The notes under the pieces are model-generated. The model worked only from the letters and a program-made list of their open reading frames with translations, was not told where the DNA came from and searched no databases. Shown one piece after another: positions 6,620-42,923 of a stretch of 51,438 nucleotides of DNA. The DNA is from Lachnospiraceae bacterium (GTDB lineage: Bacteria > Bacillota > Clostridia > Lachnospirales > Lachnospiraceae), in assembly GCA_023663945.1 (NCBI GenBank), contig JAMPGL010000029.1, forward strand, positions 1-51,438, given 5' to 3'. A program made the position numbers and the translations under genes. Each line of letters opens with the position of its first letter. Within the stretch, counting starts at the first letter, position 1.

Positions 6620-8089
6620 ATGATGAAATATTTACAAAAGCTGGGTAAATCATTGATGCTTCCGGTAGCTTGTTTACCTATCTGCGGTATCCTGATGGGA
6701 ATCGGATACGCACTGTGTCCGGCAACCATGCAGGGCGGAGAAATCACCGGTTTTTTGAATCTGTTAGGATTCTTTCTGGTTAAGGCAGGCGGCGCGCTGA
6801 TCGACAATATGGCGCTCTTGTTTGTCATCGGCGTAGGCATAGGCATGTCGGACGACAATGACGGTACGGCAGGGCTTGCGGCATTTGCTTCCTGGCTGAT
6901 GATCACCAACCTGCTTTCCGTAGGCACGGTTTCCACATTGATGCCTTCCATAGCAGACAATGCAAATAAGACGCTTGCTTTCAGCAAGATTGCCAACCCG
7001 TTTATCGGCATCATTGCCGGCATCATTGGCGCAACCTGCTACAATAAATTTAAGTCAACGAAACTGCCGGATTGGCTGTCATTCTTCGGCGGCAAGCGCT
7101 GCGTGGCAATCATTGCCGGCGTTGTGTCCATCGTAGTGTCAGCGGTTCTGCTGTTCGTATGGCCCATTGTATTTGGTGCTCTTATTGCAATTGGTGAAGG
7201 AGTTGTCGGACTTGGCGCAGTAGGCGCAGGTATTTATGCGTTCTTGAACAGACTGCTGATCCCTACAGGACTGCATCACGCATTGAACAATGTGTTCTGG
7301 TTTGACACCATTGGTCTTGGAGACCTGTCGCATTTCTGGGCAGGAGATACCAGTGCAGATGTTTCTTGGAGCCTTGGCATGTATATGTCCGGTTTCTTCC
7401 CTTGTATGATGTTCGGTATTCCCGGAGCGGCTCTGGCTATGATTCAGACAGCCAAAGAGGGTAAGAAGAAGGTTGCTATCGGTCTTGTGGCTTCTGCGGC
7501 AGTTTGTGCATTTGTCTGTGGTGTAACAGAACCTTTTGAATTTGGTTTTATGTTCCTTGCACCTCTTCTTTATCTGATTTATGCACTGTTATATGGTATC
7601 TTTACGGTTATTACAACATTGGTTGGCTTCAGAGCCGGATTCAGTTTCTCAGCAGGCGCAACAGACCTTGTATTCTCGGCATCACTGCCTGCGGCGGAGA
7701 AGACTTGGATGATCATTCCGCTTGGCATTGCGGCATTTGTAGTATTCTATCTGGTGTTCCGCTTCGCGATTGTGAAGTTTGACCTTAAGACGCCCGGCAG
7801 AGAAGACGACGATGTGGAAGAGGAGAAGAAGGCAGTCCTTTCCAACAGCAATTATGCACAGGTAGCTTCCACGATTCTGGAAGGTCTTGGAGGAAAAGGC
7901 AACATTACTTCTCTTGACAATTGTATTACGAGGCTTCGTCTGGAGATTAAGGATTACACCTTAGTTGACGAGAAGAAGATCAAGTCGGCAGGCGTTGCGG
8001 GCGTTATGAGGCCCAGCAAGACGGCTGTACAGGTTATCATAGGCACGAAGGTACAGTTTGTAGCCGACGAGATGAAGAAATTAATATAG
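6620..8089 (+). CDS. nagE: PTS transporter EIICB, glucose/N-acetylglucosamine family
   Basis: The protein imports and phosphorylates a sugar; with nagB and nagA next to it, N-acetylglucosamine is the likely substrate. Residues 1-390 are the EIIC membrane domain of the Glc family (MMKYLQKLGKSLMLPVACLP start, about ten hydrophobic segments, conserved GLHHALNN and GVTEPFEF motifs). An acidic linker (EDDDVEEEKK) leads to the EIIB domain with the phospho-cysteine motif LDNCITRLR, Cys435. No EIIA (Crr-like) domain is attached, so EIIA must come from elsewhere. The ribosome site is AAAGGGGG. There is no RAT in the 242 bases upstream, so control comes from the switch ahead of the antiterminator gene. 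The symbol is by context; ptsG-like glucose use cannot be excluded. Confidence 0.85.
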   Translation: MMKYLQKLGKSLMLPVACLPICGILMGIGYALCPATMQGGEITGFLNLLGFFLVKAGGALIDNMALLFVIGVGIGMSDDNDGTAGLAAFASWLMITNLLSVGTVSTLMPSIADNANKTLAFSKIANPFIGIIAGIIGATCYNKFKSTKLPDWLSFFGGKRCVAIIAGVVSIVVSAVLLFVWPIVFGALIAIGEGVVGLGAVGAGIYAFLNRLLIPTGLHHALNNVFWFDTIGLGDLSHFWAGDTSADVSWSLGMYMSGFFPCMMFGIPGAALAMIQTAKEGKKKVAIGLVASAAVCAFVCGVTEPFEFGFMFLAPLLYLIYALLYGIFTVITTLVGFRAGFSFSAGATDLVFSASLPAAEKTWMIIPLGIAAFVVFYLVFRFAIVKFDLKTPGREDDDVEEEKKAVLSNSNYAQVASTILEGLGGKGNITSLDNCITRLRLEIKDYTLVDEKKIKSAGVAGVMRPSKTAVQVIIGTKVQFVADEMKKLI

Positions 8090-33485: not shown

Positions 33486-33609
33486 AGAGGGAAATAAAAT
33501 TGATTTGATGAAATACAGGCTGGAAACGGCAGAAGAATTGATAGAACCAGTCGAAAACTTTTGTAAAAGCAGGATAGATAAAGTAGAACAACATTCCAAG
33601 CGTAGGTAA
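33472..33609 (+). pseudogene. HEPN-domain toxin remnant, centre deleted
   Basis: The 45-residue frame starts MEQHEEGNKIDLMKYRLETA, which is the usual N-terminus of HEPN proteins paired with MNT genes, then passes at once into EELIEPVENFCKSRI, which looks like the C-terminal helix. The central helices with the RNase motif (RxxxxH) are missing. The join is in frame. It cannot be an active toxin. Confidence 0.7.
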
Positions 33610-33627
33610 AATGCCCTAATGGACACC

Positions 33628-33667
33628 GCCTAGCCTGTTTGCCGACAGGTTAGGCATTTTCATTTTC
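33628..33667 (+). terminator. Terminator after the MNT/HEPN remnant
   Basis: GCCTAGCCTGT (33628-33638) pairs with ACAGGTTAGGC (33645-33655) with one G-U pair, then ATTTTCATTTT. Confidence 0.85.
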
Positions 33668-33720
33668 GCTTGTTTTTCTATAGTAAACCTATGGCTGGTG
33701 GGGCGCAGGAAAGTAAAAGC

Positions 33721-33856
33721 TTAGGCTTTTTTAGCAACTCGCTCACTATAACGCTCCTTCCGCTTTCTTTTTCTCCAATTCAATCCTTATCGCTTCATTT
33801 ACACGTTTAACAACCAGTTCATCGGAAATGTAATCTTCTCGCTTCATGCTTTTCAT
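33721..33856 (-). pseudogene. Truncated small antitoxin-like gene
   Basis: On the minus strand ATG 33856, with AAGGAAGG just upstream, encodes MKSMKREDYISDELVVKRVN followed by EAIRIELEKKKAEGAL, and stops at 33746. Beyond a one-frame shift the next codons read RYSERVAKKA and stop at 33721. Clostridial proteins of about 70 residues that I recall have the same beginning and an RYSER-type ending separated by about 25 residues, so the middle is probably deleted here. No partner gene was found. Confidence 0.5.
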
Positions 33857-33954
33857 TACCTTCCTTCTTAATTCAGAATAAGTACGAAATAGCCCATTTA
33901 TATTATATACTATACATCACATGATGCCTTTTGAAAACTGAATTTTCCGCCAAC

Positions 33955-33983
33955 TTGACAATAAAAACACAATTGACTATAAT
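33955..33983 (+). promoter_or_regulatory. Sigma-A promoter of the GntR/ABC operon
   Basis: TTGACA (33955-33960), 17 bases, TATAAT (33978-33983): consensus at all twelve positions. Such strength implies tight repression. Confidence 0.93.
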
Positions 33984-34003
33984 GTACTTGTTCAATAAGT
34001 ACA
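33983..34003 (+). promoter_or_regulatory. Palindromic operator for the YtrA-type regulator
   Basis: TGTACTT (33983-33989) and AAGTACA (33997-34003) form a perfect inverted repeat over the transcription start. The GntR/YtrA protein encoded next is the likely ligand. Confidence 0.85.
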
Positions 34004-34025
34004 ATTGAAGGAGAAAGTATTATAC

Positions 34026-34403
34026 GTGGAAATCATCATCAGCAATAATGCCAATAAGCCGATTTACGAACAGATTACTTCTCAGATTAAGGCGATGATC
34101 ATGAGCGGGGAATTGAAAGCCGGAGAGGGAATCCCCTCCATGCGCGCACTGGCTAAATCCATTCATGTAAGCGTCATCACTGTTCAAAAGGCGTACGAGG
34201 ATCTGCAAAGAGACGGCTTTATTGAAACTACAGTTGGACGCGGAAGCTTTGTTTCGGCACAGAATAAGGAATTTTATCAGGAAGAGCAACAGCGGATTGC
34301 GGAGGAACATTTGCAGGCGGCAGCCGAAATCGGGCGGGTAAACAATATTTCTCTTGAAAAGTTGACGGAGTTGTTGAGCATATTCTATCAGGAGGATGAA
34401 TAG
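34026..34403 (+). CDS. GntR-family regulator, YtrA subfamily
   Basis: The 125-residue protein has a winged helix at 10-75 (PIYEQITSQIKAMIMSGELK, GIPSMRALAKSIHVSVITVQ) and only a short helical tail for dimerisation, the YtrA hallmark. GTG 34026 is chosen; AAGGAG (34008-34013) lies 12 bases upstream, and the in-frame TTG at 34005 precedes it. It controls the two ABC genes downstream through the palindrome over its promoter. YtrA relatives often respond to envelope stress or wall-active antibiotics. Confidence 0.92.
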   Translation: MEIIISNNANKPIYEQITSQIKAMIMSGELKAGEGIPSMRALAKSIHVSVITVQKAYEDLQRDGFIETTVGRGSFVSAQNKEFYQEEQQRIAEEHLQAAAEIGRVNNISLEKLTELLSIFYQEDE

Positions 34404-34404
34404 C

Positions 34405-35271
34405 ATGGAGAATATTTTAGAGCTAAAGCAGGTTTCCAAGACGTTTTCAAAGTCCGGATTTACGCTGGATCAGGTGTCTTTTGAACTGCCTTATGGGGCA
34501 GTCATGGGATTTGTCGGGGAAAACGGCGCGGGTAAGACCACTACGCTTGGCTGTATTTTAAATACAATCAGGAAGGACAGCGGAACGGTAAAGCTGTTTG
34601 GCAGGGAAATGTCGGATGCAGATACGGATATGAGAGAGGAGATTGGCGTTGTCTACGACGGCGGCAACTTTCCGCCTTATTGGAACGCAAAGCAGTTATC
34701 ACATGTCATGGAAGGCTTTTACGCTAAATGGGATCAAGCTTTATTCCAAAAATATCTGGAAGAGTTCCAGCTGCCGGCTAAACAAAAGATAAAATATTAT
34801 TCCCGGGGAATGACCATGAAGTTAGCTATTGCGGCGGCACTGGCGCATCGCCCGAAGCTTTTGATCATGGATGAGGCAACCAGCGGGCTTGACCCTGTTA
34901 TGCGCGACGAGATGCTGGATGTGTTCCTTGAATTTGTTCAGGAGGAGGATCACTCCATTTTGTTGTCGTCGCATATAACAAGTGATTTGGAAAGAATTGC
35001 GGATTATATCGGATTTATCCATAATGGAAAACTGATTATGAATGTGTCAAAAAACGACTTGGCGTACCGTTATGCGGTTATCCGTTGTAAAGAGAGTCAG
35101 TTCCGGACGTTAGACCCCGGTGATATTATTGCGTACCGAAAGCGTGACTATCAAATTGATGTATTAGTCCCGGAGGGAAAGGAAGCGGAGAGAAAGTATC
35201 CGGATGTGGTGGTTGATCATGTGTCGATTGATGAGATTATGCTGTTGTTGGTAAAGGGGGAAAGAACATGA
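34405..35271 (+). CDS. ABC transporter ATP-binding protein (YtrB-like)
   Basis: The 288-residue ATPase has Walker A GENGAGKTT, signature YSRGMTMKLAIAAALA, Walker B LLIMDEATSGLD and switch His LSSHITSD, and a C-terminal extension typical of YtrB/BcrA-type ATPases. AGGAGG (34390-34395) is nine bases before ATG 34405; the in-frame ATG 34396 overlaps the GntR stop but lies in the ribosome site. The permease start overlaps its stop by four bases. Confidence 0.94.
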   Translation: MENILELKQVSKTFSKSGFTLDQVSFELPYGAVMGFVGENGAGKTTTLGCILNTIRKDSGTVKLFGREMSDADTDMREEIGVVYDGGNFPPYWNAKQLSHVMEGFYAKWDQALFQKYLEEFQLPAKQKIKYYSRGMTMKLAIAAALAHRPKLLIMDEATSGLDPVMRDEMLDVFLEFVQEEDHSILLSSHITSDLERIADYIGFIHNGKLIMNVSKNDLAYRYAVIRCKESQFRTLDPGDIIAYRKRDYQIDVLVPEGKEAERKYPDVVVDHVSIDEIMLLLVKGERT

Positions 35272-35912
35272 AAGGACTGTTGAAAAACAATCTTTTGGCG
35301 GTGTATACAAATGCAAAAGTATTTTTTGTATTTATGTTATTGTTAGGAGCCTTTGCGGTTGCGGTTATCAGCCAATCCCTGTTAATCGGTTATGTGATGA
35401 TTGGAATGCTGGGATTTTCTTATAATGCGGCTGCTGTCGTCAAAAACGAGTTTGCCACAAAATGGGGGAAATACAAGCTGACGCTTCCGGTAAAGCGGGC
35501 GGATATTGTGAAAAGTTTATTCTTGAATCACATTGTCTGGATATTGGCAGGAACATTTTTTTCGATAATAGTGGTTGGGCTTTCGCTGGCTGTGCATGGA
35601 AGCTCTTTTGATCAGCCGATCGATATTCTCAGTTTATTTGCGCTGGGAATGAGCATGAGCCTTTTTATGGGAGCTGTATTTTTTCCATTGTTTTATTTGG
35701 GAGGGGAAGAGAGAAGCGAAGTGTTTCAGATTATTTCCATACTTGTCGCATTCTGTCTGGATTTTGCCATTATTAGTGCGGTAAACAATCTGCTTGCACC
35801 GGGAATTACAGCTATTGTGCTGGGAGCAGTCATTTTGCTTGCCTCCTCCGGACTGGCGTTCGGGCTTTCTTATTTGCTCACAGCGCAGATTTTCAGGCAG
35901 AAGGAGTATTAA
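35268..35912 (+). CDS. ABC-2 type transporter permease
   Basis: The 214-residue protein has about six membrane segments and the ABC-2 permease loop WGKYKLTLPVKRADIVKSLF found in small permeases paired with YtrB-like ATPases. It is translationally coupled to the ATPase by an ATGA overlap. Its last 39 bases lie inside the 368-bp direct repeat and appear again, orphaned, at 39961. Confidence 0.9.
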   Translation: MKGLLKNNLLAVYTNAKVFFVFMLLLGAFAVAVISQSLLIGYVMIGMLGFSYNAAAVVKNEFATKWGKYKLTLPVKRADIVKSLFLNHIVWILAGTFFSIIVVGLSLAVHGSSFDQPIDILSLFALGMSMSLFMGAVFFPLFYLGGEERSEVFQIISILVAFCLDFAIISAVNNLLAPGITAIVLGAVILLASSGLAFGLSYLLTAQIFRQKEY

Positions 35913-36241
35913 AGCCTGACAGGATTAAATGATGGATATTTCAAGGGGTGCGTTGAGAAGCGCAATGATAAGCGCAATTTGCACAATCAAAATAAAAGGC
36001 ATACCGTACACAAAGGCGCGGTGCCTGGTTTTATGGCGGAAAACATACATTCCGATAATGGAACCGATGCTTCCGCCGATAGCCGCAACAATAAAAAGGG
36101 TTGCTTCCGGAATCCGGAAGGCCCTTTTTTTTGCTTTGTATTTATCGATGCCCATAAGGGCAAATCCCATTAGATTAACGGCCGCAAAGTAGGAAAGCAG
36201 CATGGTGATTACGTCCATAAGTGTATCCCGTCTTTTGAAAT
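35874..36241. repeat. 368-bp direct repeat, left copy
   Basis: The block runs from TTGCTCACAG to TCTTTTGAAAT and recurs at 39961-40328 with the same length and only four substitutions. It contains the end of the ABC permease gene and the whole DUF1294 gene. The two copies are 4,087 bp apart start to start and bracket an AT-rich cassette. Confidence 0.97.
35925..36218 (-). CDS. DUF1294 membrane protein, copy 1
   Basis: The 97-residue protein has four likely membrane stretches and the DUF1294 core MGIDKYKAKKRAFRIPEATL followed by FIVAAIGGSIGSIIGMYVFRHKTRH. Function is unknown. The deduced protein is identical to that at 40012-40305. It is convergent with the ABC permease, ending 13 bases from that stop. 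Confidence 0.92.
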   Translation of the reverse strand: MDVITMLLSYFAAVNLMGFALMGIDKYKAKKRAFRIPEATLFIVAAIGGSIGSIIGMYVFRHKTRHRAFVYGMPFILIVQIALIIALLNAPLEISII

Positions 36242-36249
36242 ATTATTTT

Positions 36250-36278
36250 TTGACAAATGGTATCAGGTTTGATACTCT
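36250..36278 (+). promoter_or_regulatory. Promoter with internal operator-like repeat, cassette two-component system
   Basis: TTGACA (36250-36255), 17 bases, TACTCT with a TG one base before it (extended -10). The spacer holds GTATCA (36260-36265) and TGATAC (36270-36275), a perfect inverted repeat that could bind a repressor or activator. Confidence 0.55.
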
Positions 36279-36369
36279 ATTATCACTAATCATAGAAAGT
36301 ATATAAATTAGAATATGTATTTAATTATGAAAAGCAGGATTATTATATGGTAAAGAGGTAAGAAGCTTC

Positions 36370-37095
36370 ATGCTAAAGATAGCAGTATGTGATGATGAAA
36401 AATATTGTGGGGAAAAAATAGTCAGTATGCTGGAAGAAGCATTAGACAAGTATGGGATAAGTGTTTATAAAATAGACACCTATTTATCGGGCAAAGAGTT
36501 TGTTGAAAAGAATAATAAGTTATATGAGTATGATATTATTTTTTTAGATATTAATATGCCTGATGTTAATGGACTGGAAGTGGCAAAAAAAATAAGGGAA
36601 GTCTGCCCTGATATTCTATTAGTCTTCATTACAGCATTTGTTGATTTTGCATTAGAAGGGTATAAAATGGAGGCAGTGCGCTATTTGTTAAAGGATATGC
36701 TGGATGAAATGTTTCCAGAGTGTATGGAGATACTGATCAGAAAATTATCACTACAGGCGAAGAAAATAAGGTACCATTTTATCGAAGGGGAAGTAGAACT
36801 GGCAGTTGACAGAATACGTTTTGTCGAAAGTAATATGCATAAATTGACATTCAATGTCCTTGGAAAAAAACAAATGCAATATCGATTGTATGGTAAATTG
36901 GATGACATTGAAGCAGAATTGCTGCAGTATGATTTTTTAAGGGTTCATAAAAGTTTTTTGGTAAATTCAAAGTATATTCAAGAAATGGTAAATTATAAAG
37001 TGTATTTAAATGATGGTGTTACATTGCCGATTCCGCGCGAACGGTATCAGAAGGTAAAAGAGAGATATTATGAAATAAAAGGTGATATGGTATGA
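36370..37095 (+). CDS. LytTR-family response regulator (AgrA-like)
   Basis: The 241 residues start with a receiver domain (KIAVCDDEKYCGEKI; phospho-Asp60 in IIFLDINMPD; Lys in RYLLKDMLDE) and end with a LytTR DNA-binding domain (from about 140: VDRIRFVESNMHKLTFNVLG; FLRVHKSFLVNSKYIQEM; LPIPRERYQKVK). Base composition is clearly more AT-rich than the arginine genes next door. It overlaps the kinase gene by four bases (ATGA). No agrB or agrD-like gene is present in the cassette. Confidence 0.93.
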   Translation: MLKIAVCDDEKYCGEKIVSMLEEALDKYGISVYKIDTYLSGKEFVEKNNKLYEYDIIFLDINMPDVNGLEVAKKIREVCPDILLVFITAFVDFALEGYKMEAVRYLLKDMLDEMFPECMEILIRKLSLQAKKIRYHFIEGEVELAVDRIRFVESNMHKLTFNVLGKKQMQYRLYGKLDDIEAELLQYDFLRVHKSFLVNSKYIQEMVNYKVYLNDGVTLPIPRERYQKVKERYYEIKGDMV

Positions 37096-38384
37096 CATAT
37101 TATATTCGAGCATTTCTATTGACCCTTATTGAAGCACTGTGCTGTAGAAATTTTTTTGAAATCTTTTTGGAAAAGGATTGTAAAAAGATAAGATGGATAA
37201 ATAAATTTCTATTTGTAGCTCTATTTTTAGGATTTGCAGGAATTTCCCTAGTTTTTACAAGAGATTACATATGGAAGGCAATTTTCTCCATTATATTAAT
37301 AAGTAGTATTATGATGGTTCAACATCATGCAAATTTTATGTATACACTTTTTCTTTCCATTACATATTATGGAATGCTGATTTGTATAGATAAAATCATG
37401 CTGGTAGGCGTGGAAGCTTTGCTGGGTTCAAGAACTGAGGCAATACTGGATGATTCGATAAATATTACGATTATTGCGTTGATATGTAAGACAGTGCTTT
37501 TTCTTTTTATTGTTTTGTTAAACAAAGTATTTCATTCAAATAATAGTTTTAACTTAATCACTGACAAGGAATGGATACGCTTTTTGTTTTTCCCATTTAT
37601 GACCATTGTATGCATGTCGGCACTGGCAGTTGAGGAGAAGAATGGAGAGAGATCAGCCCTGATTGTGAGCTTTGCATTAGTCTTCTTTAATTTTCTTGTT
37701 TTTTATATTATTCGAGATGTGGTGTCTAAGGAAAAAGAAATACGCGAAACATGTTTGTCGCAGGAAAGAATAAAAAACCAGATGGCAATGTATCAGTATA
37801 TGGAAGGAGTTTATAGCGAGCAGCGTAAACGGACGCATGAATTTAAAAATCACCTAATATGCCTTAGCGGTTTAATCAAATCAGGCGAGTATTCAGGAGC
37901 AAAAAGTTATTTAGATAAGATAAACAACAGCTGGTTGGAAGAGATGGACTTTATTAATACGAATAATATGATTGTAAACAGTGTAATCAATCAAAAGTTT
38001 AAGGTCGCTAAAAAGAAAGGGATTCCGCTTCTGCTTTCTATAAATGATTTGAGTAATTTATTGATAGAAGAGGAAGATATAGTAACGCTGCTTGCCAATC
38101 TTTTGGATAATGCGATTGAGGCATGTGAAAAAATAACACAAGGAACTAAAGTAATAAAATTACGATTTTTGGATGAGGGAGGGAAAATAATTATTTCAGT
38201 AAGAAATCCGGTTGCAGGGCAGGTGTATTTTGGAGAAAAAGGCTTGTTCACGACAAAAAAGGATAAAAATGAACATGGAATTGGAATGCTGAATATAGAA
38301 AATGTTGTGAGAAAATATAATGGAGAAAGCATATGCAGCTGTAATGATGGCTATTTTACGCATAGTGTTATAATCAAGTTTTAA
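37092..38384 (+). CDS. GHKL-domain sensor kinase (AgrC-like)
   Basis: The 430-residue kinase has six to seven membrane segments in the first 210 residues. Phosphoacceptor His249 lies in RTHEFKNHLICLSGLIKSG, the N-box is LLANLLDNAIEAC, and the G-box HGIGMLNIENVVRKYNG. This is the AgrC class that detects peptides or small molecules from outside. It is coupled to the regulator gene before it and closed by a strong terminator. Confidence 0.93.
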   Translation: MTYYIRAFLLTLIEALCCRNFFEIFLEKDCKKIRWINKFLFVALFLGFAGISLVFTRDYIWKAIFSIILISSIMMVQHHANFMYTLFLSITYYGMLICIDKIMLVGVEALLGSRTEAILDDSINITIIALICKTVLFLFIVLLNKVFHSNNSFNLITDKEWIRFLFFPFMTIVCMSALAVEEKNGERSALIVSFALVFFNFLVFYIIRDVVSKEKEIRETCLSQERIKNQMAMYQYMEGVYSEQRKRTHEFKNHLICLSGLIKSGEYSGAKSYLDKINNSWLEEMDFINTNNMIVNSVINQKFKVAKKKGIPLLLSINDLSNLLIEEEDIVTLLANLLDNAIEACEKITQGTKVIKLRFLDEGGKIIISVRNPVAGQVYFGEKGLFTTKKDKNEHGIGMLNIENVVRKYNGESICSCNDGYFTHSVIIKF

Positions 38385-38410
38385 GAAAAGATATAGAACT
38401 GAGAAAGCAG

Positions 38411-38438
38411 AAACGATGGTGAGAGACCGTCGTTTTTT
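38411..38438 (+). terminator. Terminator after the cassette kinase
   Basis: AAACGATGGT (38411-38420) pairs with ACCGTCGTTT (38426-38435) with one G-U pair, followed by T. Wider pairing AAAGCAG with TTGCTTT extends the stem. Confidence 0.88.
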
Positions 38439-38516
38439 GCTTTTAACCGCCGATTCCTGCTAGAAATATTTATTTTATAATTTTTTATGATATATTGAAA
38501 AAAATAAGTGACTCCG

Positions 38517-38545
38517 TTGTCAACACAATTTTTATAAAATATATA
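38517..38545 (+). promoter_or_regulatory. Possible promoter of the 413-aa gene
   Basis: TTGTCA (38517-38522), 17 bases, TATATA (38540-38545). The area is AT-rich, so chance matches are easy. Confidence 0.45.
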
Positions 38546-38572
38546 GATATGTTCAGAAAATAAAATGAAAGA

Positions 38573-38626
38573 ATATACAGGGGAACATGCGGAGATTATT
38601 ATCCATAAATGTTCCCCCCTGTATAT
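38573..38626 (+). promoter_or_regulatory. Strong stem-loop ahead of the 413-aa gene
   Basis: ATATACAGGGGAACAT (38573-38588) pairs with ATGTTCCCCCCTGTATAT (38609-38626), 16 bp with a two-base bulge. There is no T-run. It lies in the transcribed leader, about 75 bases before the start codon. Confidence 0.6.
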
Positions 38627-38700
38627 TATCCTTTAACGCATGGATTTTTTTAGGAGTGCTTGCAGTTCAAAATAACAGAGGGGCTATTGAAAGGAGTAAT

Positions 38701-39942
38701 ATGTCAATTGAAGGATTATTAACAAACCAAAGAGATAATACACGCTATAATGTGCATCCCAGTTCTTCTTTGAAAAGTAAAAAGCAGGAATTATCATGGG
38801 AAATAGATATTGCACAAAAGCTTTCTGAGAACAACAAAGAAGAGAAAGACATTAACAAGAATATTCCAATGCAGTTGAATAATATTGTATTAAATTCCTG
38901 TTATATGCCGCCAATTATTAAGACAGAGGAATCGGCTGCTGATTGCTCCCAAAATGGAAAAACAATTCATTCATATCAGGAACAGCCCAAAATGCTGTCT
39001 GTTTCGGAAGAACAGATTAATATTTTGTTTAAAGATCAAGATACCAAATCTGAAAATAGACGAAATTATACTAAAGGTATATATACCAGTAATACGCCAA
39101 AAGAATTGGACACAGTCTTTTACACCTATTATTCGCCGGAAGGTATCAGATGCATCAGGGAGGGAGAAAGAGATCCTGAAAATCCCAATGAAAAGATAGG
39201 AAAAGACACACTTCAGTGGGAGATAAAGCTGGATAGCAGGGATCAGTATGACAAAATTATGAAGTTTCTTTCACGCTTTCCGCAAGAGGATAACTTTCGT
39301 TTTGCTACAAGGCAGCTCTTTTGGAATGATTTTTTAGAAGAGAAAATTGATATGGATAGTTTTTTTGATTTTTATGCTTGGACAAATGATGGTTGTCCTG
39401 ATATGGGAAAGGGTGAAAACGGTGAGCAGATAGGAATAAATAAAGAGCGCATAAACGATTCAAATGCTGAGTATTTCAATGATTGGACTTGGATCAAGAA
39501 TGTGTGGACACAGGAAGAGATGTGGGCAGAATGGTATGCAAAAATAGATGCTGCCAGTGCCGAACAGAAGACCACGGATATTAGTCAGGCAGTATTAAAA
39601 TATTCTAAGGAAACCACATATATAAACGGGTATTTTCAATTGGCAGATGAAACGGGTATTATAAATTATAGAGGAACTATATTTACTTGCGATTATAAGT
39701 CAAATGCTTTGAAATTAGGGGATTGCAGCAATCTCAAAAATTGTATTCAAATTGCATTAGCTGGTGGGGAAATCCTTGTCGTAAATAAAGATAATATTGA
39801 CGAATTAATTAATGCTATTCCCATGTTTTCACCAGTGGATGTCGCAAGCATTTTGCAGGCAATTCAAAAGGAAAGAATGATGCAAAATGCACTTAATGAA
39901 GCAGAAGAAAAAATAGATTCCGAATTATTCGGAAGATCTTAG
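38701..39942 (+). CDS. Unrecognised 413-aa protein in the repeat-flanked cassette
   Basis: AAAGGAG (38690-38696) sets the start at ATG 38701 (MSIEGLLTNQRDNTRYNV). The first ~160 residues are polar and low-complexity (many Lys, Glu, Asn, Ser). From about 165 a folded domain begins (FYTYYSPEGIRCIREGERDP, LQWEIKLDSRDQYDKIMKFL, WNDFLEEKIDMDSFFDFYAW, then a Trp-rich stretch NDWTWIKNVWTQEEMWAEWY), and the C-terminal third has short strands and helices. No signal peptide or membrane helix starts at this Met. An upstream in-frame ATG at 38587 would add a hydrophobic segment but has a misplaced ribosome site. I do not recognise the family. It sits alone behind the AgrC/AgrA-like pair and may be its target. 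Confidence 0.75.
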   Translation: MSIEGLLTNQRDNTRYNVHPSSSLKSKKQELSWEIDIAQKLSENNKEEKDINKNIPMQLNNIVLNSCYMPPIIKTEESAADCSQNGKTIHSYQEQPKMLSVSEEQINILFKDQDTKSENRRNYTKGIYTSNTPKELDTVFYTYYSPEGIRCIREGERDPENPNEKIGKDTLQWEIKLDSRDQYDKIMKFLSRFPQEDNFRFATRQLFWNDFLEEKIDMDSFFDFYAWTNDGCPDMGKGENGEQIGINKERINDSNAEYFNDWTWIKNVWTQEEMWAEWYAKIDAASAEQKTTDISQAVLKYSKETTYINGYFQLADETGIINYRGTIFTCDYKSNALKLGDCSNLKNCIQIALAGGEILVVNKDNIDELINAIPMFSPVDVASILQAIQKERMMQNALNEAEEKIDSELFGRS

Positions 39943-39960
39943 AGTTTATAGGGCGCAAAA

Positions 39961-40328
39961 TTGCTCACAGCGCAGATTTTCAGGCAGAAGGAGTATTAAT
40001 GCCTGACAGGATTAAATGATGGATATTTCAAGGGGAGCGTTGAGAAGCGCAATGATGAGCGCAATTTGCACAATCAAAATAAAAGGCATACCGTACACAA
40101 AGGCGCGGTGCCTGGTTTTATGGCGGAAAACATACATTCCGATAATGGAACCGATGCTTCCGCCGATAGCCGCAACAATAAAAAGGGTTGCTTCCGGAAT
40201 CCGGAAGGCCCTTTTTTTTGCTTTGTATTTATCGATGCCCATAAGGGCAAATCCCATTAGATTAACGGCCGCAAAGTAGGAAAGCAGCATGGTGATTACG
40301 TCCATAAGTGTATCCTGTCTTTTGAAAT
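39961..40328. repeat. 368-bp direct repeat, right copy
   Basis: Second copy of 35874-36241. Its first 39 bases are the orphaned last codons and stop of the ABC permease gene, which shows that the block was copied from the left context. The four differences are near 39999, 40036, 40047 and 40316. Confidence 0.97.
40012..40305 (-). CDS. DUF1294 membrane protein, copy 2
   Basis: Encodes the same 97 residues as copy 1 at 35925-36218; the nucleotide changes inside the gene are silent. It lies upstream of nothing on its own strand and downstream of argG's stop at 40377. Function is unknown. Both copies keep intact frames, so both may be expressed. Confidence 0.92.
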   Translation of the reverse strand: MDVITMLLSYFAAVNLMGFALMGIDKYKAKKRAFRIPEATLFIVAAIGGSIGSIIGMYVFRHKTRHRAFVYGMPFILIVQIALIIALLNAPLEISII

Positions 40329-40376
40329 TTATCTTGTTTTTTGAAATTAAATACGTATTTTACAGCATTGCATCGG

Positions 40377-41597
40377 TTACTGTAACTCTCCGCGCTCCTG
40401 CATTTTCATTGCACGCACCTTGGTGGAAAGACCGAACAGATTGATAAAGCCTTCCGCGTCATGATGGTCGTACAGATCGCCGGTAGTGAAGGAAGCGATG
40501 CTTTCATTATATAAGGAGTAAGGTGAAGTAGTGCCTGCTTTCATGATGTTGCCCTTGTAAAGCTTAAATTTCACTTCGCCTGTCACATATTTCTGAGTAG
40601 ATTCAATAAATGCCTGAACTGCTTCGCGGAGAGGAGAGAACCATTTTCCCTCGTAAACAATCTGTGCCATTTTGTTTCCCATATCTTTCTTGAGGGCGTA
40701 GGTGTCGCGGTCGAGAATCAGTTCTTCAAGCTGTTGATGAGCTTCGTAAAGAATGGTTCCGCCGGGAGTTTCATAAACGCCTCTGGACTTCATGCCGACT
40801 ACGCGGTTTTCTACAATGTCAACGATGCCGATGCCGTGCTTTCCGCCAAGGGCGTTCAGTTCGCGGATAATATCGGAAACCTTCATCTCTTTGCCGTTTA
40901 CGGAAACCGGGATGCCCTTTTCAAAGGCAAGGGTCACATACTCGCCCTCGTCGGGAGCCTTTTCCGGAGTGACGCCCAAAACAAGGAGATGCTCAAAGTT
41001 CGGCTCGTTTGCAGGATTTTCAAGCTCCAGCCCTTCGTGGCTGATATGCCATAAGTTACGGTCGCGGCTGTAGCTGGAATCTGCGGAAAACGGCAGGTCA
41101 ATGCCGTGTGCCTTACAGTAAGCGATTTCGGATTCCCGGGAATCCAGTGTCCACTTGTCGTTCCGCCAAGCGGCAATGATCTTTAAATCAGGAGCAAGAG
41201 CCTTGATGCCAAGCTCAAAACGAATCTGGTCATTTCCTTTGCCGGTAGCGCCGTGACAGATTGCGGCGGCGCCTTCTTTTCTTGCAATTTCAACCAGCTT
41301 TTTAGCGATAAGGGGCCTTGCCATGGAAGTCCCTAAGAGATATTTATTTTCGTAGACTGCATGCGCCTGTACGCAGGGAACAATATACTCATCGCAGAAC
41401 TCGTCCGTAACATCCAGTATGTATAATTTTTCGGCGCCGCAGAATTTGGCGCGTTCTTCCAGACCGTCCAGCTCTTCCCCCTGCCCGCAGTCGATGCAGA
41501 CGCAGATTACTTCATAATCAAAATTTTCTTTCAGCCAGGGAATGATTGCTGTGGTATCCAGCCCGCCTGAATATGCTAAAACAACTTTTTCTTTCAT
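40377..41597 (-). CDS. argG: Argininosuccinate synthase
   Basis: The enzyme joins citrulline and aspartate using ATP, the penultimate step of arginine synthesis. The 406 residues have the PP-loop [32 protein letters not shown], the substrate region [20 protein letters not shown] and a family-typical C-terminus ([20 protein letters not shown]). GGAGG precedes the start. It is transcribed divergently from argC, and both promoters sit in one 366-bp region with ArgR-like sites. argF and argH are not in the window. Confidence 0.97.
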
Positions 41598-41693
41598 AAT
41601 AAAGTGCCTCCAAAATGATTATTTTCTTTACCATTGCTAAGCGTGGCGCCGGAAACTGCATGAACCAATCCGCTTACTGCAATGTCTTCTGAC

Positions 41694-41722
41694 AATATAC
41701 AACAACTTCAGCGGAAATGCAA
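41694..41722 (-). promoter_or_regulatory. argG promoter
   Basis: Minus strand TTGCAT (41722-41717), 17 bases, TATATT (41699-41694). The -35 box is one half of an inverted repeat with TTGCAT at 41732-41737, consistent with ArgR binding. Confidence 0.82.
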
Positions 41723-41800
41723 GAGTTAGTTTTGCATATTTAAAAATTATTTTTTAATTTTTATGCATAAAATCAAAAACATATTGAATATTATGCAAAA
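41717..41800. promoter_or_regulatory. Candidate ARG boxes between argG and argC
   Basis: Three candidates: ATGCAA (41717-41722) with TTGCAT (41732-41737); the perfect palindrome TTATGCATAA (41761-41770); and TGAATATTATGCA (41785-41797), close to the ARG-box pattern TGAATNNNNATTCA/ATGCA. They overlap the -35 regions of both divergent promoters, as expected for arginine repression by ArgR/AhrC. The arg genes on each side make this reading likely. Confidence 0.65.
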
Positions 41801-41812
41801 GAGTTGTATACT
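41784..41812 (+). promoter_or_regulatory. argC operon promoter
   Basis: TTGAAT (41784-41789), 17 bases, TATACT (41807-41812), with an ARG-box-like site across the -35 and spacer. The leader contains a hairpin, GTATGATTT (41868-41876) with AAATCATAC (41885-41893). No T-box or riboswitch was recognised. Confidence 0.82.
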
Positions 41813-41963
41813 TATACGATGTGAAAAGCTTTTTGAACTTTATGGTTGAGATTTTACTGTTTAGAGAGTATGATTTATGAGGGCAAATCATACAGGAAAC
41901 GGCGTAATAAATTGTGAGAATGTGATGAGGACACGATAAGAAAATATCAGGAAAGGGCTGCGA

Positions 41964-42923
41964 TTGTCTATGAAAAAAGCAAAAATTTTCATTGATGGAA
42001 GTGAAGGAACTACCGGACTGCGCATTCACGAGCGCTTTGCGGGGAGAGATGACATAGAACTGCTCACCATTTCGGGGGAGCTCCGGAAGGATAAAGAGGA
42101 GAGGGCGCGTCTGATTAACCAGTCGGATGTGACGTTTCTCTGTCTCCCGGATGCGGCGGCGAGGGAATCGGCGGGGCTGGCAGATAACGACCGGGTGCGG
42201 ATTATTGATACCTCCACGGCGCACAGAACAGAGGCGGGCTGGGCGTACGGGTTCCCAGAGTTGTCCAAAGCTCACAGGGCGCAGATTCGGGAAGGAAAAC
42301 GTGTAGCGGTGCCGGGGTGTCACGCCACGGGATTTATCTCGCTTGTGTATCCGCTGGTATCCTCCGGGATACTGCCGCCGGATTATCCGGTGTCTGCCTT
42401 TTCGCTGACAGGCTATTCAGGGGGCGGAAAGAAAATGATTGCTCAGTATGAGGGAGAAGGGCGTCCCGAAGAGCTTGACTCTCCCCGGGAGTATGCACTT
42501 TCCCAGCAGCATAAGCATTTAAAGGAAATGAAAGCGGTTACGGGACTTTCAAGGGAACCGCTGTTTTCGCCTATTGTCGCGGATTATTACAGCGGTATGG
42601 TGGTAACGCTTCCTATTTATATGGAATATATATCAAAGATGTCCTCTCCGGAAAAGCTTCGGGATTTCTTTGCGGAGTTTTACGCCGGGGAAGCTTTTGT
42701 GAAGGTGATGCCGTTTGGGGCGGAGGCTGAACTGGCAGGAGGCATGATAGCCGGAAACAGCTGTGCGGGCTGGGACGGGCTGAGAATTTTTATCAGCGGA
42801 AATGAGGACAGAGTGGTGTTAAATGCGCAGTTTGATAATCTGGGCAAAGGAGCGTCGGGTGCGGCAATCCAGTGTCTCAACATTATGCTGGGATGCGAAG
42901 AGGATAGAGGGCTGAATCTATGA
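41964..42923 (+). CDS. argC: N-acetyl-gamma-glutamyl-phosphate reductase, short (type 2) form
   Basis: Third step of arginine synthesis: NADPH-dependent reduction of N-acetylglutamyl phosphate. The short form starts KIFIDGSEGTTGLRIHERF and has the catalytic Cys in VPGCHATGFISLVYPL, and SLTGYSGGGKKMI. At about 318 residues it is typical of type 2. TTG 41964 is seven bases behind AGGAAAGG; ATG 41970 is equally possible and gives two residues fewer. It overlaps the next gene by four bases (ATGA). Confidence 0.95.
   Translation: MSMKKAKIFIDGSEGTTGLRIHERFAGRDDIELLTISGELRKDKEERARLINQSDVTFLCLPDAAARESAGLADNDRVRIIDTSTAHRTEAGWAYGFPELSKAHRAQIREGKRVAVPGCHATGFISLVYPLVSSGILPPDYPVSAFSLTGYSGGGKKMIAQYEGEGRPEELDSPREYALSQQHKHLKEMKAVTGLSREPLFSPIVADYYSGMVVTLPIYMEYISKMSSPEKLRDFFAEFYAGEAFVKVMPFGAEAELAGGMIAGNSCAGWDGLRIFISGNEDRVVLNAQFDNLGKGASGAAIQCLNIMLGCEEDRGLNL

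Follow-up and report, generated by a model that had tools for sequence, protein, structure and literature searches.

An apparent receptor-only derivative of an agr-type module between duplicated DUF1294 blocks in a Lachnospiraceae genome

The stretch analysed here, which we call the window, is a 51,438-bp contig of a Lachnospiraceae bacterium (contig 29 of a draft genome, G000, of 3.74 Mb in 107 contigs, 94% complete). Between the genes for an ABC permease and argG it carries a foreign insert that, judged by its genes and by comparison with relatives, is a receptor-only, cut-down derivative of an agr-type quorum-sensing module. The module has a fuller form in other Lachnospiraceae, the insert has lost the signal genes of that form by deletion, and it lies between two copies of a 368-bp block of its target (Table 1). 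With a probability of roughly 0.6, we propose that this derivative entered in one duplicative, microhomology-guided event.

The duplicated block and its insert

The two 368-bp blocks are alike at 364 of 368 positions and are spaced 4,087 bp apart; they are the sole direct repeat of at least 60 bp that the repeat finder returned for the whole window. Both encode an identical DUF1294 protein of 97 amino acids (aa), and the right block opens with the last 12 codons and the stop codon of the permease gene, out of context. An earlier account of the window, which we call the sequence-only reading, had described the matching blocks, the identical proteins and the displaced permease codons, and all of them hold, down to the four differences between the copies (left/right: 35913 A/T, 35949 T/A, 35970 A/G and 36229 C/T). 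The intervening DNA had been taken for an AT-rich foreign insert, in agreement with its GC content of 33.1% as against 46.3% for the remaining window. Its three genes encode a LytTR response regulator, a GHKL sensor kinase and a protein of 413 aa that has no family assignment. The sequence-only reading saw no transposase, integrase or insertion sequence (IS) end, and neither did we in domain scans of the three proteins or in a search for inverted repeats at the insert ends; a single imperfect 32-nt inverted pair (78%) has one arm 67 bp inside the left end and the other beyond the right repeat. An Rfam scan of positions 33500–42500 gave no match at the gathering score.

A DNA search with the 368-bp block covered 60 genomes, 24 of them from other families of the order and 36 from the window's genus (G060, the 37th genome of the genus, stood outside the search). 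Matches were obtained in all 36 genomes of the genus and in none of the 24. The window genome gave two matches and each of the other 35 gave one, so the doubled arrangement is not shared by these relatives, a result that favours the sequence-only reading on the point by which it had offered to be refuted. The surrounding DNA was inspected in 25 of the 35, and in all 25 DUF1294 adjoins argG, which is the position of the right copy; the gene on the other side of DUF1294 differs among relatives. With the permease on the left, the repeat pair therefore looks native at each of its outer borders, which upholds the duplication of a target block claimed by the sequence-only reading. The picture that emerges from these comparisons is that of an insert with a 368-bp target duplication. 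Synonymous divergence (dS) between the two DUF1294 copies is 0.03 (two changes) versus 0.35–0.40 to the nearest relatives (G031 and G032), which serves as a rough clock, one that gene conversion could bias by making the copies look younger.

Table 1 Features of the duplicated locus (window coordinates)
Feature	Position	Strand	Basis or remark
ABC-2 permease, 214 aa, native left neighbour	35268..35912	+	PF13346; last 39 bp inside left repeat
Left 368-bp repeat copy	35874..36241		Repeat alignment
DUF1294 gene, left (extra) copy	35925..36218	-	PF06961; just 23 bp of upstream sequence kept
9-bp microhomology CTTTTGAAA	36232..36240		In register in left copy, right copy and G009 upstream of module
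Foreign insert, 3,719 bp	36242..39960		33.1% GC; comparison with relatives
AgrA-like LytTR response regulator, 241 aa	36370..37095	+	PF00072, PF04397; 90% identical to G009 copy
AgrC-like GHKL sensor kinase, 430 aa	37092..38384	+	PF14501, E 1.1e-24; 83% identical to G009 copy
Terminator-like hairpin with T run, 3′ of kinase gene	38403..38444	+	Fold z-score -6.85
Promoter-like element TTTTTTGCTTTTAACCGCCGATTCCTG, presumed response-regulator site	38433..38459	+	Resembles elements behind related kinases
Putative -10-like TATGAT	38486..38491	+	Conserved in G009
Deletion scar	38507..38508		Comparison with G009
Remnant of 328-aa secreted-protein gene, VTPLSTQFL and stop (nine codons)	38508..38537	+	Comparison with G009
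Stable hairpin in leader of 413-aa gene	38572..38627	+	Fold z-score -4.34 (window), -4.92 (G009)
413-aa protein, two separately recurring parts	38701..39942	+	Sub-threshold family matches only
Right 368-bp repeat copy	39961..40328		Repeat alignment
Permease 3′ end, out of context	39961..39999	+	Within right repeat
DUF1294 gene, right copy, conserved place beside argG	40012..40305	-	25/25 relatives examined
argG, native right neighbour	40377..41597	-	Gene order in relatives

The fuller module and the loss of its signal genes

The fuller form of the module is found in the relative G009, where the gene order is regulator, kinase, AgrB (PF04647, E 4.7e-34), AgrD (44 aa; TIGR04223 at 19.6 bits, cut-off 19), a secreted protein and the 413-aa protein. 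The secreted protein has 328 aa, a signal-like N terminus and a PPC domain; its last residues are VTPLTTRFL. The order is the same in Lachnospiraceae strain 1XD21-87, and a 15,239-bp piece holding the entire module is 99.46% identical between the two genomes, which represent two species because the collection has one genome per species. The complete module spans positions 7182–12539 of L058 and 2927–8284 of L076, the records of these two Lachnospiraceae species. SpoVG, ArdC and NlpC/P60 genes adjoin it in G009, and the same 70.8-kb contig also holds a TraG-type ATPase, a coupling protein and two Tn916-type integrases. Judged by these neighbours, the module travels in the company of conjugative genes of the Tn916 type. 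When the window is compared with G009, dS is 0.71–1.08 for the module genes and 3.04 (saturated) for argG; so much lower a divergence in the module than in argG indicates horizontal movement.

A segment of 1,744 bp that G009 has, comprising agrB, agrD and most of the secreted-protein gene, is missing from the window. The window tracks G009 as far as the agrB leader, and the match takes up again close to the 3′ end of the secreted-protein gene, so that a remnant of nine codons and the stop is left. What was kept is the receptor pair: the AgrA/AgrC-like assignment of the sequence-only reading is supported by PF00072 and PF04397 in the regulator and by PF14501 in the kinase, and the NCBIfam AgrA equivalog scores 44 of 400 bits on the regulator, under its cut-off. 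The earlier term "signalling cassette" is right in that a receptor kinase and a regulator are present, but the cassette is incomplete, being a deletion derivative without agrB, agrD and the secreted-protein gene, a loss that was not visible to the sequence-only reading. Compared with a complete agr system, the window thus holds an AgrC-type kinase and an AgrA-type regulator, and neither AgrB nor AgrD. In the window genome as a whole (94% complete), the only AgrB matches are two distant ones, at 29% and 24% identity, and a search for homologues of the secreted protein found none; the agrD interval of G009 is missing from the window, no separate genome-wide AgrD search having been made.

Decay of the module has taken other forms elsewhere. 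The deletion in G032 differs from that in the window: it begins within about 10 bases of the same point and extends almost up to the 413-aa gene. Regulator and kinase are likewise missing from G032 at this place, and BlaI/BlaR1-type genes adjoin. By this comparison G032 appears to have lost agrB, agrD and the secreted-protein gene separately from the window. G034 carries fused remnants of the regulator and the 413-aa gene, and G024 and G022 have the 413-aa gene without other module genes.

Junctions and the route of entry

The left junction carries a 9-bp microhomology, CTTTTGAAA, shared in register with the DNA upstream of the G009 module. When these two stretches were compared in 22,100 register pairs, runs of at least 9 began at 5, counting the real one. 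The microhomology points to illegitimate joining. Two routes can be envisaged. A replication fork would leave the DUF1294 leader at the microhomology, copy the module and return 368 bp upstream, in the permease end; alternatively, broken sister copies would be joined around the module. Either route would leave the permease end and DUF1294 twice, with no transposase needed. Both template switching and RecA-independent joining are described for bacteria in the available text of PMC5350276. Loop-out of 4,087 bp by RecA is a fair prediction for the present arrangement and may be possible.

Several observations weigh against this account: (i) no convincing microhomology was seen at the right junction, for which the relatives offer no donor sequence, as their match to the window ends with the 413-aa gene (a 6-bp match with G009 at this junction, GCTCAC, was rejected as too weak); (ii) no empty site was seen among the genomes compared, which belong to other species; (iii) the donor was not found, G009 being only about 81–83% identical to the window in DNA, and 6.3 kb of the G009 conjugative backbone beside the module had no DNA match in the window genome, in a search run without a positive control; (iv) the module is tied to a conjugative element in G009 through its gene neighbourhood; and (v) the ratio of nonsynonymous to synonymous divergence (dN/dS) between the window and G009, 0.07–0.19, implies that the module genes are mostly under purifying selection, but it spans the whole branch and gives no proof of function since the deletion.

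The sequence-only reading had instead proposed a circle, made up of the cassette and one 368-bp block, that recombined homologously with the one block then present in the chromosome and so became integrated. Such an event yields exactly the observed outcome with copies that are 99% alike, and a 368-bp repeat at 99% identity is ample for RecA. We nevertheless consider it unlikely. The sequence-only reading had suggested looking for the cassette next to DUF1294 elsewhere, and at none of six other homes is the cassette or the 413-aa gene linked to it: in G009, G032, G024, G022 and G034 the sole DUF1294 gene lies on another contig than the module or 413-aa gene, and the 15.2-kb stretch of 1XD21-87 is without DUF1294. 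Direct repeats of at least 60 bp were absent from all five other stretches with the module or the 413-aa gene that were searched for them (L058, L060, L063, L064 and L065); together with the single DUF1294 beside argG in relatives, this shows that the repeat does not belong to the cassette as such. Furthermore, the circle requires the same two foreign junctions to have been made beforehand, plus an extra integration step, and the left junction is already explained by the 9-bp microhomology.

Somewhat less probable again is a tandem duplication after insertion, in which the cassette would have joined beside a single block and unequal exchange or slippage would later have copied the block across it. 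The locus has been rearranged before: the permease lies 12 bp from DUF1294 here and 2.7 kb from it in G032, with Rpn-family and MerR genes between (the G031 contig stops short of the permease). Tandem duplication in bacteria is reported in PMC11111574 for constructs bordered by microhomologies of 9 bp. This account calls, however, for two events and for two end points that happen to coincide, and the outer borders of the repeat pair are both native neighbours.

We see little chance that the assembly wrongly joined a real single-copy locus and a separate cassette molecule, even though this is a draft genome of 107 contigs and repeats are classic assembly traps. Twelve relatives were used to polarise the differences between the repeat copies. 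The A at 35949 and the G at 35970 of the right copy are absent from all 12, and on this comparison both changes seem to have arisen in the right copy. At 36229 G031 and G032, the two closest relatives, carry T like the right copy, G020 carries C like the left, and nine are unaligned; the change is likely to have occurred in the left copy, less surely so given that just two relatives polarise it and that the more distant G020 disagrees. For 35913 no polarity was obtainable. Copies with such private changes look like two loci, which counts against an assembly error, and the permease tail in the right copy and the native outer borders fit a true insert.

Least credible is a site-specific integrative element with its attachment site in DUF1294, or an IS-flanked cassette, whose recombinase was lost: integrative elements can duplicate gene ends, and the G009 module lies among integrase-bearing conjugative genes, but the IS or transposon form was rejected for want of a transposase or integrase in the three genes and of terminal inverted repeats, and the attachment-site form because DUF1294 is not beside the module elsewhere (in G009 the two are on different contigs) and the five other homes tested lack direct repeats of at least 60 bp.

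The promoter-like element, the 413-aa protein and related systems

Behind the kinase gene lies a promoter-like element, TTTTTTGCTTTTAACCGCCGATTCCTG, which we infer to be the site of the regulator. Twenty kinase loci, taken from among the matches listed in the kinase search and a small part of all, were checked for it; the element pattern matched 14 of them, or 12 of 18 when the window and G009 are left aside. Several of these loci have, by our own reading, a second half-site about 19 bp further on and then a TATAAT-like -10. With the window's own spacing and at most two mismatches, the core has a single site in the window and a single one genome-wide, a reversed-pattern control giving one hit; the longer-spacer form, counted within the window only, finds the same site and no second. 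Speaking against a regulator site are the six unmatched loci of the 20 (two of which, L053 and L056, are similar by eye), the spacer, which is one base longer in all 12 matching loci than in the window and G009, and the weakness of the second half-site in the window. Binding of the regulator to the element and its activity as a promoter are putative.

As an observation on the wider kinase family (L040–L057), 12 of 18 related loci have a T-rich terminator-like stretch followed by a similar element, often before a lipoprotein-like gene, and by this comparison the element behind related kinases appears to be a regulator site that a widespread family has conserved. The hairpin in the leader of the 413-aa gene is common to the window and G009 (L058, 8541–8591), is removed in G032, and as a candidate repeat family occurs in a single copy in the window.

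In G009 the element precedes agrB–agrD, an arrangement that would form a positive loop. In the window the deletion has put the 413-aa gene behind the element in place of agrB–agrD, and the self-amplifying loop would therefore be cut. The kinase would sense a cyclic peptide from other cells or from another locus and phosphorylate the regulator, which would then act on the element. A host with receptor, regulator and one output gene and without the signal genes might thus own a stand-alone listening circuit that responds to the peptide of gut neighbours bearing the fuller conjugative form, a suggestion that we regard as speculative and rather doubtful. Both deletions, in the window and in G032, start immediately after the promoter-like element, and in both the 413-aa gene is now the one that follows it; this would suggest that selection keeps the link between element and gene. 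In G032 (L060, 5858–9551), the 413-aa gene and the promoter-like element are divergent to the BlaI/BlaR1-type genes, and the BlaR1-like protein bears both M56 and transpeptidase domains.

Family searches with the 413-aa protein stayed below threshold. The best Pfam match was DUF5475 at E 0.047 (0.0076 for the G009 copy), under the cut-off; NCBIfam gave nothing to E 0.1, PADLOC gave nothing, and the best matches in PHROGs and PDB were at E 0.088 and E 0.016, the latter a designed TIM barrel. Parts of the protein recur at E 1e-10 or better in 40 of 397 sampled Lachnospiraceae genomes, the window genome included, mostly one part only. The middle and C-terminal parts are found, often apart, in Lachnospiraceae frames of about 170–810 aa (L094–L102, L027–L031), and the four relatives that were scanned have no Pfam family at E 0.01. 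Carriage by plasmids was rejected, there being no plasmid match, as was carriage by phages, there being no confirmed viral contig; one faecal record, without annotation and filed under phage, aligns with 27% of the protein (36.5% identity, E 1e-9).

The locus shares with the agr systems of Staphylococcus aureus (agrBDCA) and Clostridioides difficile (agr2) a GHKL kinase and a LytTR regulator, to which the fuller form in relatives adds AgrB and AgrD at the same locus. It differs from them in its order, regulator-kinase-agrB-agrD-cargo, and in that agrB and agrD are deleted in the window and an unrelated 413-aa gene stands behind the promoter-like element. Like agr3 of phage phiCDHM1, it concerns agr genes on a clostridial mobile element; the phage, however, as far as the available text of PMC3901668 goes, has agrC, agrB and agrD and no response regulator, whereas the window keeps receptor and regulator, and the carrier in the window's relatives is conjugative rather than a phage. 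RgaS-RgaR and agrB1D1 of C. difficile are similar in that an AgrC-like kinase and its regulator are encoded apart from the signal genes; in that system, according to PMC10602386, the genome encodes the signal at another site, and these signal genes are a target, whereas the window genome has the two distant AgrB homologues only. Thus, agr genes on a phage and receptors apart from signal genes are known, and what is new is a receptor-only module, derived from an agr locus in a conjugative context, between duplicated flanks. A limited search of open-licence papers, by titles and the starts of abstracts, found no account of this locus or of a receptor-only agr cassette with duplicated flanks.

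On the reading that we favour, a single duplicative entry of a module derivative, the locus would show a quorum-sensing system that travels with conjugative genes among gut Lachnospiraceae and then decays into different parts depending on the host: receptor and output without signal here, the output gene alone elsewhere. It would also be a natural example, with a rough clock, of foreign DNA that carries a long target duplication and no visible recombinase.

The joining of foreign DNA without a transposase recalls the template-switch acquisition linked to Rpn nucleases in the available text of PMC5350276. An Rpn-family gene (PF04754) is present at this locus in G032 and G031, and the window genome has 13 matches to the family; in contrast to that report, the window holds no relative of the locus's Rpn-family gene and gives no sign that Rpn acted here. 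As such genes are common, their presence at the locus in G032 and G031 is suggestive only. In these two genomes the Rpn-family gene and a gene for a 440-aa MerR protein adjoin DUF1294 (L061, 8938–11335; L062, 268–2662), the G032 gene being assigned to the family by PF04754 and the G031 gene by 95% identity. A different gene occupies the spot beside DUF1294 in G009, G014 and G004, and its product is 29–30% like that of the neighbour of the 413-aa gene in G024; this neighbour and its relatives in the three genomes were rejected as Rpn nucleases, since Pfam gave no support. The stretch adjoining DUF1294 has the look of a hot spot for insertions.

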